From: Denitrovibrio acetiphilus DSM 12809
GTDB lineage: Bacteria; Chrysiogenota; Deferribacteres; Deferribacterales; Geovibrionaceae
Direction of reading: 5' to 3'
Assembly: GCF_000025725.1 (NCBI RefSeq)
Contig: NC_013943.1
Span: 1,116,001 to 1,180,000 of the forward strand
Length of the DNA: 64,000 nt
Each line of letters begins with the position of its first letter. The stretch's first letter is position 1. The translations under genes were made by a program, and so were the position numbers. Positions 25,015 to 61,883 of this stretch are shown in pieces. The notes below the pieces were generated by a model. It saw nothing but the letters and a program-made list of their open reading frames with translations. It was not told the origin of the DNA and did no database searches.

Positions 25015-25167
25015 AGTTACCACTGAAAGCTTGACCAAAGATGGACATTTAGATATTTAAGAGGAGTAGGAAGATTAACTGAATTCAAACTGACCAATCA
25101 AAACCGGAATCACTGTCCAGTCATTTCCGGATTCAGTGTCCAATTACACCGGAATACGCAAGCAGGA

Positions 25168-25454
25168 TGAGGATTACTGGTCTTAGGCTTCTGATAAACA
25201 GCAGCTATCCCCATCTTATTCATCAGTCTGCGTATACGCTTACGACCAACATTGTATCCATACCTTCGGAGAGTCTTTGACATCTGCCTGGAGCCGAAGT
25301 CAGGCGTCATCATAAACTGCTCGTCTATAATACGCATAAGTTCAAGGTTTAAAGCAGACTCTCCAGACTCTTGATAATAAAAGCTGGAGCGACTGATACT
25401 AAGAAGCCGGCACTGCTTGCTAATTGAGAGCTTGCTTCCAGAATTTTCTATCAT
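25168..25454 (-). pseudogene. IS3 transposase OrfB, N-terminal part
   Basis: Starts MIENSGSKLSISKQCRLL behind GGAGGAAG and contains the HTH_21-type region (DEQFMMTPDFGSRQMSKTLRR region). Separated from its C-terminal part (21885-22467) by IS21 copy 3. Confidence 0.87.
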
Positions 25455-29322: not shown

Positions 29323-29514
29323 TTAATAACTCCTTGGCTTGTTGTGATATCATAGTAGTTCTGGTATTCGCTTAAAACCACTGTGTATAATGAGTCAATA
29401 TAAACATACATTGTTATAAAAGCAACACCTTACAAATTGATTATCTCGGGTATTTGGTTAATAATCCATTGAATTTCTGGTAGAATTGTCACTATATTAT
29501 AGAAGGAGTTGAAA

Positions 29515-30144
29515 ATGATGCAGGGGCTTTATACTGGTGCAAATGCCATCTCAGTCTATAAAAATTCGCTGATAAATACTGCCAATAATGTTGCCAATAT
29601 AAATACGCCTTATTTTAAAAGTAATACTCTCCAGCTTAACGAGATGGAGCAGGGTGGAGTAAGTATCTCTTCTATAAGGCAGAATCAGGATTTATCATAT
29701 ACTATCAGTTCTGGCAGAACTCTTGACTTTGTTATTGACGGATCCGGGCAGTTCAGGCTGGAAGACAACAACGGCACATCCTATACCAGAAATGGAGTAT
29801 TTTATCTGGATGCTGAAGGGGATGTGGTTGACAGTGGCGGACGTAAACTCCTTGAGGATGTTGTGAAACCGGGAGAATCCGCAGAAAGTCTTTCTGTGGG
29901 CGAAGACGGCAGTTTCACTGTTGACGGTGAGTTCCGCGGGAAAATAGATGTTTATGACAGCTATGGTAACAAAATACCTGAAAACCTTTACATGCTGAGG
30001 TCAGGAATGCTTGAGGTTTCTGATGTCGATTACGCAAGAGAGGTTGTGGATATGATAGTTACAAAGAACGCTTTCAGTGCCAACACCTCATCAGTCAGAA
30101 CATATGATGATATGCTTGGTTTGATTGTCAATCTTGTAGGGTGA
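29515..30144 (+). CDS. Flagellar basal-body rod protein, short FlgF/FlgG type
   Basis: About 209 aa. N-terminal rod motif (LYTGANAISVYKNSLINTANNVANINTPYFKSN), a middle LDFVIDGSGQFRL stretch and C-terminal EVVDMIVTKNAFSANTSSVRTYDDM, which are the helical ends shared by axial flagellar proteins. Shorter than FlgG (~260), nearer to FlgF-like variants. ATG 29515 follows GAAGGAG. No other flagellar gene is adjacent. Exported by the flagellar type III system and built into the rod. Confidence 0.82.
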   Translation: MMQGLYTGANAISVYKNSLINTANNVANINTPYFKSNTLQLNEMEQGGVSISSIRQNQDLSYTISSGRTLDFVIDGSGQFRLEDNNGTSYTRNGVFYLDAEGDVVDSGGRKLLEDVVKPGESAESLSVGEDGSFTVDGEFRGKIDVYDSYGNKIPENLYMLRSGMLEVSDVDYAREVVDMIVTKNAFSANTSSVRTYDDMLGLIVNLVG

Positions 30145-40418: not shown

Positions 40419-41135
40419 ATGTTACTCAGATTTCTGCCGGCACTGCTTATATCTATGCTGGTTCACTTTCTTATTCTGGGAGCGGTACCGGGGTTTGACC
40501 TTATACTTAAGCCCAGAAAGAGGATAGTGGATGTTGAGATAATTACGTCTTCCATAAGGGAGCTTCCTCCTGCTCCTGTCCAGAAGACCGGCTCAAGTGC
40601 AGTTAGCAAAAACGCAGAAACTAACGAGGCTACAGCTCCCGCTCTTACTGTACCGGATATCGATATTCCGGATATCGCAGATACAAAAGAGCTGGATGTT
40701 AAAATACCTGATCTCAATGTGACAAGGCTTGAAAATACCAGCAGGTTGAAACCTGATAAGGAGCTTTTGAAAGAGCTGAAATCAACTTCAGATGAATTCC
40801 AGAAGGCAAATAAGCCAGGGGAAGGTATCCAGTCTGATGTAACTGGAACGGATGCCAGCGCAAGAGACTTCTTTGTAATAAAGAACCTGAACAGAAACAG
40901 AAAACTGACCAATACTCCGGATAAACCGACTTTTTCTCTCACCGCAGATACGTCTGTGCGTCTCAGTTTTAAAGTTGACAGAGAAGGGAACACCTATTCC
41001 ATAACGCTTTTGAACAGTACAGACTCACAGATTGAGCGTCTTGCCATTGACTTTGTGAAGAAATTAAAGTTTAATGCCGTTCTGTCGGAGCAGTCAGAAT
41101 CCGCAGAAATAATATTAAATTTCAGAGTCAGATAG
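40419..41135 (+). CDS. TonB-family energy transducer
   Basis: 238 aa. Short N-terminal membrane helix (about 5-25), a periplasmic Pro/Thr/Asp-rich linker with IDIPDIA repeats, and a TonB C-terminal domain (VRLSFKVDREGNTYSITLLNSTDSQIERLAIDFVKKLKFN). Transmits force from ExbB/D to outer-membrane partners. Starts at the exbD stop; ends overlapping the methyltransferase start. Confidence 0.85.
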   Translation: MLLRFLPALLISMLVHFLILGAVPGFDLILKPRKRIVDVEIITSSIRELPPAPVQKTGSSAVSKNAETNEATAPALTVPDIDIPDIADTKELDVKIPDLNVTRLENTSRLKPDKELLKELKSTSDEFQKANKPGEGIQSDVTGTDASARDFFVIKNLNRNRKLTNTPDKPTFSLTADTSVRLSFKVDREGNTYSITLLNSTDSQIERLAIDFVKKLKFNAVLSEQSESAEIILNFRVR

Positions 41136-42289
41136 TGGACAATAACTTAGATAACACATTAGAAAAATACGTAGAACAGCTTATCAGTGAAAAAGGTCAG
41201 ATAACCTTTGCTGAGTTTATGGATATTGCTCTTTACCATGAAGGGCTTGGCTATTACCAGAAACAGAATCCATTCGGTCAGCAGGGGAGCTTTTATACTT
41301 CTGTAAATGCGTCAGAATCCTTCGGGCGAACCCTTGCACGTTCCTTTGTGTATATGACTGAGCTCTTAAAGCTTGAACACCGTTTTTGTGAAATGGGTGC
41401 AGGTTCGGGTATGCTGGCGAATGACATTCTTAACTTTCTTAAAGAGCGGGAGCCGAAATTCTACGAAAGTCTTGACTACCTTATAATAGAAAAGAGCGGA
41501 TACCTTATAGAGCGCCAGAAAGAACTTTTGGATAAGGCACATACGGGTAAAGTTAAGTGGATCAGATTCGAAGAGCTGGACGACTTTAAGGGTGTTTTCT
41601 ACTCTAATGAGCTCGTTGATGCATTCCCTGTTCACAGGGTTATCCGTATGGACGGTGAGCTTAAAGAACTTTACGTTAAAAAGATAGACGGTGCTCTCCG
41701 TTTTAATCCGGGGGAGCTTTCTACTCCTGAATTGCAGGATTTCCTTGATACTATTAACCTGAAAGTGACAGAGACCCAGATAGTTGATATTAACCTTGAT
41801 CTCCGCCGTTTTATCGAAGCAATGGCGGACAAGATAACCAAAGGTGTTATGCTGACCATCGATTATGGTTTTGAAGCTCCTATGCTTTATCAGTCCTACA
41901 GGCGTGACGGCACAGTTACCTGTTATTACAATCACACTCAGAATAATGATTTTTTTGACCGGATAGGCTATCAGGATATTACCGCTTTTGTGGATTTCAC
42001 TTCTCTTTCTCTTTACGGTGCGGAAAAAGGACTTGAACCTATGGCGTATATGCCTCAGTGGCTCTTTCTCGTACAGTCGGGGATTCTTGACGAGATAAAC
42101 GAAGCTGAAAATGATCTGTCTAAAGCATCTATCAAAGCTCTCATTATGCCGGATGGTGGATTTGGTACAAATTTTCAGGCATTTATACAGGGGAAAGGTA
42201 TAGACATTCCCAAAGACTTTAAATACGCAAAACCTGCGAAAGAGACTTTAGCGGAAATGGCAGAATTTTTTAAACCGCTGGAGAACTGA
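41135..42289 (+). CDS. MidA/NDUFAF7-type SAM-dependent methyltransferase
   Basis: 384 aa, Methyltransf_28 family. N-terminal ITFAEFMDIALYHEGLGYYQ and GQQGSFYTSVNASESFG, SAM-binding CEMGAGSGMLANDIL, and FYSNELVDAFPVHRV, all family hallmarks. The mitochondrial homologue methylates an Arg in a complex I subunit; a bacterial target is not established. GTG start overlaps the tonB stop by 1 bp. Confidence 0.9.
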   Translation: MDNNLDNTLEKYVEQLISEKGQITFAEFMDIALYHEGLGYYQKQNPFGQQGSFYTSVNASESFGRTLARSFVYMTELLKLEHRFCEMGAGSGMLANDILNFLKEREPKFYESLDYLIIEKSGYLIERQKELLDKAHTGKVKWIRFEELDDFKGVFYSNELVDAFPVHRVIRMDGELKELYVKKIDGALRFNPGELSTPELQDFLDTINLKVTETQIVDINLDLRRFIEAMADKITKGVMLTIDYGFEAPMLYQSYRRDGTVTCYYNHTQNNDFFDRIGYQDITAFVDFTSLSLYGAEKGLEPMAYMPQWLFLVQSGILDEINEAENDLSKASIKALIMPDGGFGTNFQAFIQGKGIDIPKDFKYAKPAKETLAEMAEFFKPLEN

Positions 42290-42358: not shown

Positions 42359-42375
42359 ATGGCACTGTTCCTGCT
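42359..42375 (+). promoter_or_regulatory. Sigma-54-type promoter before the first ALGYD-motif protein
   Basis: ATGGCAC-N5-CTGCT: GG (42361-42362) and GC (42373-42374) are separated by exactly 10 bp, as required for sigma-54. Located 35 bp before the ATG at 42410. Confidence 0.65.
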
Positions 42376-42409
42376 TATATCTATGAAAAATAGAAATAAG
42401 GAGGAAAAA

Positions 42410-42844
42410 ATGTACATCACCACGAACTATAACGCTTCGGCTTACTCTGAACTTGTTGAGAGTACATCAGCCAAGCAGAAATCACTTGTGGACTACCTGA
42501 CAGACGATGACAGTAGCTCAAAAAGTTCATTTGATTCAGTTTCTTTGTCTGCGGAAACTTATGCTGCTATTAAAGAAAATAACCCCGACCTTCTAACTGC
42601 TCTTGGCTATGATCAGGATGCAGATTCATCTGAAACAACATCAACATCGTCTTCCAGTTCGCTTCTGGACAAAGTACAGCTTTCAGCAGAGGCATATGCT
42701 GTGCTCAAAGAGACAAATCCTGAAGTTCTGGAGGCACTTGGATATGATCTAAGCGCTGATGAAACAGTTTCCGCTAAAGATGAAAAGGAAACAGATGCGG
42801 AAGAGTCTTCCTCGGACGACAGTGATACAGAAGAATCTGCATAA
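42410..42844 (+). CDS. Acidic small protein with two LSAE(A/T)YA..LKE.NP..L.ALGYD repeats
   Basis: 144 aa, unrecognised. Two copies of a ~27-residue motif: VSLSAETYAAIKENNPDLL/TALGYD (about 50-75) and VQLSAEAYAVLKETNPEVL/EALGYD (about 90-115), joined by Ser/Asp/Thr-rich linkers and an acidic tail. No signal peptide. ATG 42410 follows AAGGAGG; the upstream in-frame ATG overlaps the sigma-54 promoter. The next gene carries the same motif. The motif recalls short helical hairpins but I know no family for it. Confidence 0.75.
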   Translation: MYITTNYNASAYSELVESTSAKQKSLVDYLTDDDSSSKSSFDSVSLSAETYAAIKENNPDLLTALGYDQDADSSETTSTSSSSSLLDKVQLSAEAYAVLKETNPEVLEALGYDLSADETVSAKDEKETDAEESSSDDSDTEESA

Positions 42845-42867
42845 AGGTGAAAAATTTTCCGTATTTT

Positions 42868-42884
42868 CTGGCACAAAGAATGCT
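42868..42884 (+). promoter_or_regulatory. Sigma-54-type promoter before the second ALGYD-motif protein
   Basis: CTGGCAC-N5-ATGCT with GG (42870-42871) and GC (42882-42883) 10 bp apart; 34 bp before the ATG at 42918. Near-consensus in the -24 half. Confidence 0.75.
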
Positions 42885-42917
42885 TAATAACCTTTGAAAC
42901 CTGAAAGGGGGAATAAT

Positions 42918-43388
42918 ATGATCGTGAACGGGGTATTTTACCAGTCTTCAAAAACAAGCACAGCCGTTGAGTCAACCGATGTTGAACCTCTTGCGTCGCA
43001 TCTGACCAAAGAGAGTGAAGAAAAGGCAAAGTCTGTTTCAGACTCTGTCCAGCTTTCTGAAGAAGCATATACCGCTCTGAAAGAGTATGCTCCTGAAGCT
43101 CTTACTGCTCTTGGTTATGACTTCAATGACAAGAATGTTGTGCTTGAAGAGATGAAAGAGATTGCAAAAGAAAAATATTTTAACATGGACTCACAGGGCA
43201 TGCCTATCCCTGAATCTGAAGAGGGGATGATCAGCGCTCTTGAGGTTGCAAACAGATATATTGAAGCCCTGAATTCTATTGAGCCGGATGAGCTGCATGA
43301 AGCTGTAGCCGGAGCTAACAGCGCAAGTGCAGACAGCTCTCTGAGTCTGAGTGATATCGCTGGGGTCAGAGAATACCTGCGCGTTTAA
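42918..43388 (+). CDS. Small protein with one LSEEAY.ALKE..PE.L.ALGYD motif
   Basis: 156 aa, unrecognised, paralogous to the preceding gene through VQLSEEAYTALKEYAPEAL/TALGYD (about residues 37-62). A helical C-terminal part follows (MISALEVANRYIEALNSIEPDELHEA, LSLSDIAGVREYL). No signal peptide. ATG 42918 lies 9 bp after AAAGGGGG. Has its own sigma-54-type promoter. Confidence 0.75.
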   Translation: MIVNGVFYQSSKTSTAVESTDVEPLASHLTKESEEKAKSVSDSVQLSEEAYTALKEYAPEALTALGYDFNDKNVVLEEMKEIAKEKYFNMDSQGMPIPESEEGMISALEVANRYIEALNSIEPDELHEAVAGANSASADSSLSLSDIAGVREYLRV

Positions 43389-58252: not shown

Positions 58253-58583
58253 TACATTTTGATTTGGGAAGAATATATCTGAGCAAGGATGAACTTGTTT
58301 CTTTGTAGAATATATGCTGCACTCAAAACAGGTTAAGTTGACTCATTCGCCGTAGACAGCAGAAGTTGCTAAAATATTATTTCTATAAAAAATGAAAATT
58401 CATACTCTATCTGAGGATATGGGACATTTTGTTGTGTTAGTGTTAAATATGTTCTGTGTGGCTTATCAATTAACCCTGTGTACTTTTTTATCGTCAATAT
58501 GGAAAAATATTCCTTAATTTCTTCATGTTTTTTTCTTAATCGCTGAAATCAATGTCAATTCAGGTAATTATTTCCTTAAAAAA
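58253..58583. other. Gene-free stretch upstream of sigma-54 promoter
   Basis: 331 bp with no convincing coding frame. Probably holds the activator-binding sites for the sigma-54 promoter at 58584; no unambiguous inverted repeat was seen. Confidence 0.4.
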
Positions 58584-58600
58584 CTGGCACATCTCTTGTT
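58584..58600 (+). promoter_or_regulatory. Sigma-54-type promoter
   Basis: CTGGCAC-N5-TTGTT: GG (58586-58587) and GT (58598-58599) 10 bp apart; only one deviation (C to T) from the consensus -12 core. 35 bp before ATG 58635. Confidence 0.78.
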
Positions 58601-58634: not shown

Positions 58635-59039
58635 ATGGCATCAACAGCGGTTAACGGACAGAACTTCTTTCACAGCAGTAGCTTCAGCGAAAATGTAGTC
58701 TATGCTGCGCCTAATGAACAGATACTTGACAGAGTGTATGACTTTCCTGAAGCCCTGCCTGAGAAAGCTATGGACATGGTGGTGGAAATGGCATCCGATG
58801 ACAGCATTTCTAACAGAGAGATGGACTATATATATTTCATAGTTGTCACCCTACCTCTGATGGCAACATCAGGAATGTTTAAAGATCAGAAAAACTGGTT
58901 TCTTAAAGAGAACAGAGTAAGTTTTAAAGATTATATAAGATACAGGCTTAACAAGCTTAACTATATGTCAGTGAACAGCAATGATCAGCAATTTTGCGAA
59001 CGTATCAGGCAGCTTCTATGGAGATTTTCTGTCGTTTGA
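58635..59039 (+). CDS. Hypothetical protein under sigma-54-type promoter
   Basis: 134 aa, unrecognised. Polar N-terminus (ASTAVNGQNFFHSSSFSENVVYAAPNEQ), then a mostly helical body (ALPEKAMDMVVEMASDDSISNREMDYIYFIVVTLPLMA). RBS CAGGAG. Followed by a structured region and terminator at 59111-59140. Confidence 0.68.
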   Translation: MASTAVNGQNFFHSSSFSENVVYAAPNEQILDRVYDFPEALPEKAMDMVVEMASDDSISNREMDYIYFIVVTLPLMATSGMFKDQKNWFLKENRVSFKDYIRYRLNKLNYMSVNSNDQQFCERIRQLLWRFSVV

Positions 59040-61013: not shown

Positions 61014-61883
61014 TTAGACCGAAATAAGGTGTAAACTCTCAGTCATTTTATCATCTTTTTTCCAAATCTGAATCCCTAATCCGTTATAAGCTTCATATGG
61101 TGTTCTATCAGCCAGAGAAGAATGCGGTCTCCTAGTGTTGTATAAATTTATCCAGTTACTAAGCCCTCGCTTCAGATCGTGGCCGTTATCAAATGCATGC
61201 AGATATACGAAGCTATACTTCAATGTCCTCCAGATTCGCTCGATCATGACATTATCCATCCAGCGGCCTCTGCCATCCATAGAGATTCTAACACCAGCAT
61301 CTTTAAGAGTCTGTGTGAACTCATAGCTGGTAAACTGACTGCCCTGGTCGGTGTTAAATATTTCAGGTGTTCCGTATTTTTCAAGAGCCTCTTCCAGTGC
61401 AGCAACACAGAAATCAGAATCAAGACTGTTTGAGAGTCTCCAGCTCAGAACTTTTCTGCTGTACCAGTCCATAATTGCCACCAGATAGAGAAATCCACGC
61501 CTCATAGGCATGTAAGTAATATCTGAACACCAAACCTGATTGGGACGGCTTATATCCAGCCCCCTGAGCAGATACGGGTACTTTTTATGAGCAGGATGAG
61601 GATTACTGGTCTTAGGCTTCTGATAAACAGCAGCTATCCCCATCTTATTCATCAGTCTGCGTATACGCTTACGACCAACATTGTATCCATACCTTCGGAG
61701 AGTCTTTGACATCTGCCTGGAGCCGAAGTCAGGCGTCATCATAAACTGCTCGTCTATAATACGCATAAGTTCAAGGTTTAAAGCAGACTCTCCAGACTCT
61801 TGATAATAAAAGCTGGAGCGACTGATACTAAGAAGCCGGCACTGCTTGCTAATTGAGAGCTTGCTTCCAGAATTTTCTATCAT
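61014..61883 (-). CDS. IS3 transposase OrfB (copy 2)
   Basis: 289 aa, complete: HTH_21 region, rve core with DITYMP/AIMDWYSRK, NTDQGSQFTS and the Glu near the NVMIERIWRTLK segment. Own ribosome binding site GGAGGAAG. Normally made as an OrfAB frameshift fusion in IS3 elements; a slip site was not identified. Confidence 0.94.
   Translation of the reverse strand: MIENSGSKLSISKQCRLLSISRSSFYYQESGESALNLELMRIIDEQFMMTPDFGSRQMSKTLRRYGYNVGRKRIRRLMNKMGIAAVYQKPKTSNPHPAHKKYPYLLRGLDISRPNQVWCSDITYMPMRRGFLYLVAIMDWYSRKVLSWRLSNSLDSDFCVAALEEALEKYGTPEIFNTDQGSQFTSYEFTQTLKDAGVRISMDGRGRWMDNVMIERIWRTLKYSFVYLHAFDNGHDLKRGLSNWINLYNTRRPHSSLADRTPYEAYNGLGIQIWKKDDKMTESLHLISV

Follow-up and report, generated by a model that had tools for sequence, protein, structure and literature searches.

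What are the two small genes that lie between a methyltransferase gene and bioD in Denitrovibrio acetiphilus, and to which cellular system do their products belong? The whole stretch of DNA analysed here, referred to as the window, covers 64 kb (positions 1116001-1180000) of the single-contig, 3,222,077-bp genome of this species (G000), which is placed by taxonomy in the Geovibrionaceae (Deferribacterota); genome-wide work in this genome consisted of pattern searches only. Both genes are read from the forward strand. Gene A (42410-42844) encodes an acidic protein of 144 aa devoid of cysteine and tryptophan and is preceded by the ribosome-binding site AAGGAGG (42398-42404), and gene B (42918-43388) encodes a protein of 156 aa behind the ribosome-binding site AAGGGGG (42905-42911). 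The pair is flanked by the methyltransferase gene (41135-42289), whose product reads as MidA-like, and by a convergent neighbour whose sequence points to bioD.

Elsewhere in the window, a lone flagellar protein of the rod/hook type, which appears FlgF/FlgG-like, is encoded at 29509-30144, outside the flagellar clusters and about 12 kb away from the A/B pair. One IS3-type transposase ORF is present in two copies with identical N-termini (25110-25454, truncated, and 61014-61883), and several further insertion sequences are located at 11.8-26 kb of the window.

The repeat and its distribution

A 27-residue motif occurs twice in A, at 42533-42613 (DSVSLSAETYAAIKENNPDLLTALGYD, residues 42-68) and 42668-42748 (DKVQLSAEAYAVLKETNPEVLEALGYD, residues 87-113), and once in B, at 43041-43121 (DSVQLSEEAYTALKEYAPEALTALGYD, residues 42-68), all on the forward strand. 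The three copies share 18-19 of 27 residues in pairwise comparison, against a maximum of 13 in 2,000 shuffles of A, and the two full-length proteins match each other by BLASTP with E = 1e-10. Among the 58 ORFs of the window, the core D-x-[VI]-x-[LIVF]-S-x-x-A is found in A and B only. The initial annotation had described the genes as paralogues sharing a motif of about 27 residues, twice in the first and once in the second, and these values bear it out; the repeat itself stands as delimited there except for its start, which truly lies a few residues earlier, at D[SK]V. That annotation also knew no such family, which holds for Pfam, NCBIfam and PHROGs: searches of A and B against these collections, and against PDB sequences, returned chance-level matches only, with no family match in the PDB. 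The AlphaFold model of B has a mean pLDDT of 49, its first 45 residues being disordered and followed by low-confidence helices.

B is the family-wide, ancestral member of the pair. Both genes stand in the methyltransferase-bioD interval in genus g1 (G000, G001 and G002), a lone B orthologue occupies the same slot in the five genomes of g4 and the one genome of g2, and in the three genomes of g3 B is still next to bioD and parted from the methyltransferase gene. Each of the 12 family genomes searched therefore carries B, always adjoining bioD. A is confined to g1 (3/3 genomes). Comparison of the A and B profiles gave a probability of 96.6%, and A, which is related to B and stands in tandem with it in this genus only, looks to have arisen at the genus level by duplication of the N-terminal part of B.

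When 46 genomes of the order were searched by profile, one convincing relative (E = 0.08) came to light outside the family, a 69-residue protein from family f4 (L125, 1376-1658, in G021) with a short form of the motif, DTVIISEEALSKL. This relationship gains weight because the ATG of the gene is also preceded, at about 35 nt, by a sigma-54 box, with an exact copy of the dyad described below at -21. The other weak matches that were inspected turned out to be other proteins or antisense frames. A related-locus search with the B sequence alone gave no match, and one with five close B sequences as the query gave only Seleniivibrio/Deferribacteraceae records. Since B was not found in flagellated relatives belonging to other families, it is not a core part of the flagellum.

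Sigma-54 boxes and a dyad shared with flagellar promoters

Each gene is preceded on the forward strand by a sigma-54 (-24/-12) box of the type TGGCAY-N5-TTGCW with GG-N10-GC, namely TGGCACTGTTCCTGCT at 42360-42375 for A and TGGCACAAAGAATGCT at 42869-42884 for B, with gaps of 35 and 34 nt, respectively, between the GC and the ATG. These are the two best sigma-54 matches in the window. Because simulated DNA yields 0-5 equally high scores per 64-kb window, the score alone is no proof, which comes instead from position and conservation. A TGGCAY-type box with TGC and correct spacing precedes the ATG of every B orthologue (12/12), and equivalents precede the A orthologues (3/3, with those of G001 and G002), at similar distances from the start codon and in place while the flanking DNA diverges. 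The boxes are thus located as the initial annotation had them, GG-N10-GC promoters 34-35 bp before both start codons, and their conservation in every orthologue supports the sigma-54 control that it proposed.

From the comparison of B-orthologue promoters emerged a dyad with the consensus GGNAANNNTTNCC, just upstream of the -24 box, which we infer to be the site of an activator. At B it reads TGAAAAATTTTCC (42848-42860), 21 nt before the -24 box, and with at most one mismatch it is found at -21 to -23 from this box in 9/12 genomes, G000 included; at B in the three g3 genomes it was not found, although the sigma-54 box is present. Allowing one mismatch, the dyad lies in G000 within -150 to +70 of the boxes of flgB (one mismatch, at -20), the lipoprotein-flgFG operon (one mismatch, at +42), flgM, B and a further gene, C. 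In the same interval it is absent from 19 other sigma-54-like matches of this genome, among them those of nifA, nifB, nifV, lpxC, Fe-S genes, response-regulator genes and gene A. The dyad of B lies about 490 nt downstream of the box of A.

An exact dyad precedes the flgM box by 74-86 nt in 12/12 genomes, and the dyad is also present near flgM in two members of other families (G016 and G018); at the flgB promoters of other genomes it is less clear than in G000. Outside A, B and C, its presence at 3/3 flagellar promoters and 0/18 others gives P ~8e-4 by Fisher's exact test, a value to be read in the light of a consensus derived from B and C after these promoters had been seen, of the relatedness of the 12 genomes, and of some of the 19 matches not being real promoters. 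Several dyads fall within coding sequence, in the gene upstream of flgM and, in g4, at the C-terminus of the methyltransferase, and coding constraint could account for part of their conservation.

Among the flagellar, nitrogen and stress links first suggested for the pair, the flagellar one is favoured for B, as far as sequence can tell, because the promoters of flgB, flgFG and flgM also bear its dyad and neither the nif sites nor the other sigma-54-like sites do. The nif sites without the dyad speak against the nitrogen link. That A has no dyad of its own counts against the flagellar link, as does the missing dyad at B in g3. For Deferribacteres, a role of sigma-54 in controlling flagellar genes is already on record at gene-group level (PMC12316311); a literature search limited to open-access text found no mention of the dyad, A or B.

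Resemblance to FlgM and a proposed flagellar role

FlgM (PF04316), the exported anti-sigma-28 factor, is the closest comparison. It shares with the pair the sigma-54 promoter and with B the GGNAANNNTTNCC dyad, and like A and B it is a small protein that contains no cysteine or tryptophan and has a disordered N-terminus, rich in S/T/N/Q in all three. The core D-[ST]-V-x-[LI]-S-x-x-A is located at residues 36-43 in 12/15 FlgM sequences and at residues 42-56 in all A and B proteins, with the second A copy at 85-88; a similar segment is found in the FlgM chains of known structure 1rp3_B and 9wsf_B. The short D-x-V-x-[LI]-S-x-x-A segment that FlgM has near residue 37 is present in both proteins. 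Taken with the equal distance of the motif from the N-terminus, these features would suit FlgM paralogues that have diverged, use a D-V-x-L-S-x-x-A helix to bind sigma-28 and serve as decoys or weak anti-sigma factors. We consider this unlikely, given that the profile comparison of B with FlgM was weak (hhalign probability 14.8%, and 0.9% in a companion comparison) and that the Pfam FlgM profile gave no match above the cut-off to A or B. Moreover, the C-terminal sigma-28-binding signature G-x-Y-x-[VI]-S-G-x-x-[VI]-A-E-K is absent from the alignments of A and B, in which the FlgM C-terminal elements R, G-x-Y-x-[VI]-S-G and A-E-K-[IV]-V have no counterpart. Because they lack this signature, are strongly acidic and compare weakly by profile, A and B are not filed in the FlgM family; they differ from FlgM also in the longer ALGYD-type repeat of genus g1.

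On balance, and with a little more confidence than doubt, we propose that A and B are small disordered accessory proteins of the sigma-54 middle-class flagellar regulon in Geovibrionaceae, which are handled by export or compete with FlgM. Their regulation is well supported by inference, and their biochemical function is a conjecture. An active flagellar enhancer-binding protein would bind the putative GGNAANNNTTNCC site and turn on B and C together with flgB, flgFG and flgM, and A would probably be co-activated through the dyad of B or another site. The products, whose disordered N-terminus and D-[ST]-V-x-[LI]-S-x-x-A segment appear to resemble those of FlgM, would then be subject to the flagellar export system, whether as secreted substrates or as rivals of FlgM at a common partner, for which the export gate, a chaperone and sigma-28 are candidates. 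Judged by their sequences, they are probably FlgM-N-like, disordered proteins of the flagellar regulon that are exported by, or tune, the flagellar system.

To our knowledge, flagellar type III export has no conserved sequence signal, and A and B agree with its substrates in disorder and composition only. The export link, or an interaction with a partner of FlgM, is suggested because flagellar export substrates, in their monomeric state, have disordered N-termini (PMC9307174) and because the Campylobacter flagellar system offers a precedent in exporting small non-structural proteins, such as CiaC (PMC2764114). The CiaC/Cj1242-type proteins of Campylobacter jejuni (PMC2764114) may be likened to A and B in kind: they are small, have an unassigned fold and belong to a host with a sigma-54 flagellar system, but their flagellar type III export is known, and A and B come from free-living bacteria. 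With the sigma-54 middle-class flagellar operons of the same genome (flgB, flgFG and flgM) B shares a box type and a dyad identical in kind; unlike them, A and B are not core components, and their place is next to bioD, away from the flagellar clusters.

With A and B, which appear to be accessory proteins specific to this lineage within a sigma-54 flagellar regulon, an unannotated protein family gains a testable function class. The dyad provides a candidate flagellar activator site for a phylum in which the control of flagella has received little study. The data also suggest that a short FlgM segment has been reused in other proteins of one regulon, which bears on the timing of late flagellar export and sigma-28 release. 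A more specific version, which seems to us unlikely, holds that A and B form an undescribed FlgM-N-like family without the sigma-28-binding half, co-induced with FlgM via the unrecognised activator site GGNAANNNTTNCC and competing with it for export or sigma-28. If this were true, filament gene expression in Deferribacterota would have a second timer in these FlgM-N-like competitors.

The flagellar reading also has to be weighed against membership of A and B in a sigma-54 nitrogen or nitrate/anaerobic-respiration regulon, with no flagellar role. Sigma-54 boxes at nifB, nifV, nifA and Fe-S/cytochrome genes in G000 agree with such a regulon, as do the metabolic neighbours bioD and bioA, but no nif or respiratory promoter has the dyad of B, C, flgB, flgFG and flgM, and we regard it as quite unlikely. 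It is very doubtful that the two proteins serve as family-specific components, structural or at the surface, of the flagellum or of its sheath or hook cap, since the place of B in the flagellar regulon and an acidic, repeat-bearing, cysteine-free composition are set against a low-confidence disordered model and a search that found no similarity of A or B to rod, hook, cap or filament families. That the boxes and the motif are coincidental and the genes unconnected to sigma-54 is hardly credible, for even if such box scores arise in simulated DNA, the box keeps its position amid diverging flanks at B (12/12) and A (3/3) and the repeat stands far above shuffles.

Gene C and other small genes behind sigma-54 or sigma-54-like boxes

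The search for the dyad pattern in the 12 genomes repeatedly gave B plus one further gene, C (58635-59039, forward strand), which encodes 134 aa with no assigned function and would be the second member of a putative mini-regulon. It is preceded by an exact dyad, GGTAATTATTTCC (58563-58575), and by a sigma-54-like box on the same strand, TGGCACATCTCTTGTT (58585-58600), which, like the flgB box TTGGCATGATAATTGTT, has GT instead of GC. The AlphaFold model of its product has a pLDDT of 59 and gave no match below E 2 in a Foldseek search against the PDB. Orthologues of C are found in exactly the 12 B-bearing genomes of the 46 and in none of the other 34; in 7/12 the dyad before C is exact and stands 21-23 nt ahead of the -24 box, and where one contig holds both genes C lies roughly 10-20 kb from B. 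C is possibly a functional partner of B.

An order-wide search outside the family for the dyad with TGGCA gave mostly chance matches and, besides L125, one promoter-like case (L204, in G016), in which a 104-aa protein with no evident similarity to A or B follows a dyad and a sigma-54-like box. In G000, two small predicted secreted proteins of 58 and 73 aa are encoded immediately after sigma-54 boxes (L068 and L070, G000:C1:1693479 and 2253052); both have signal-peptide-like starts, and their leader and spacing are similar to each other.
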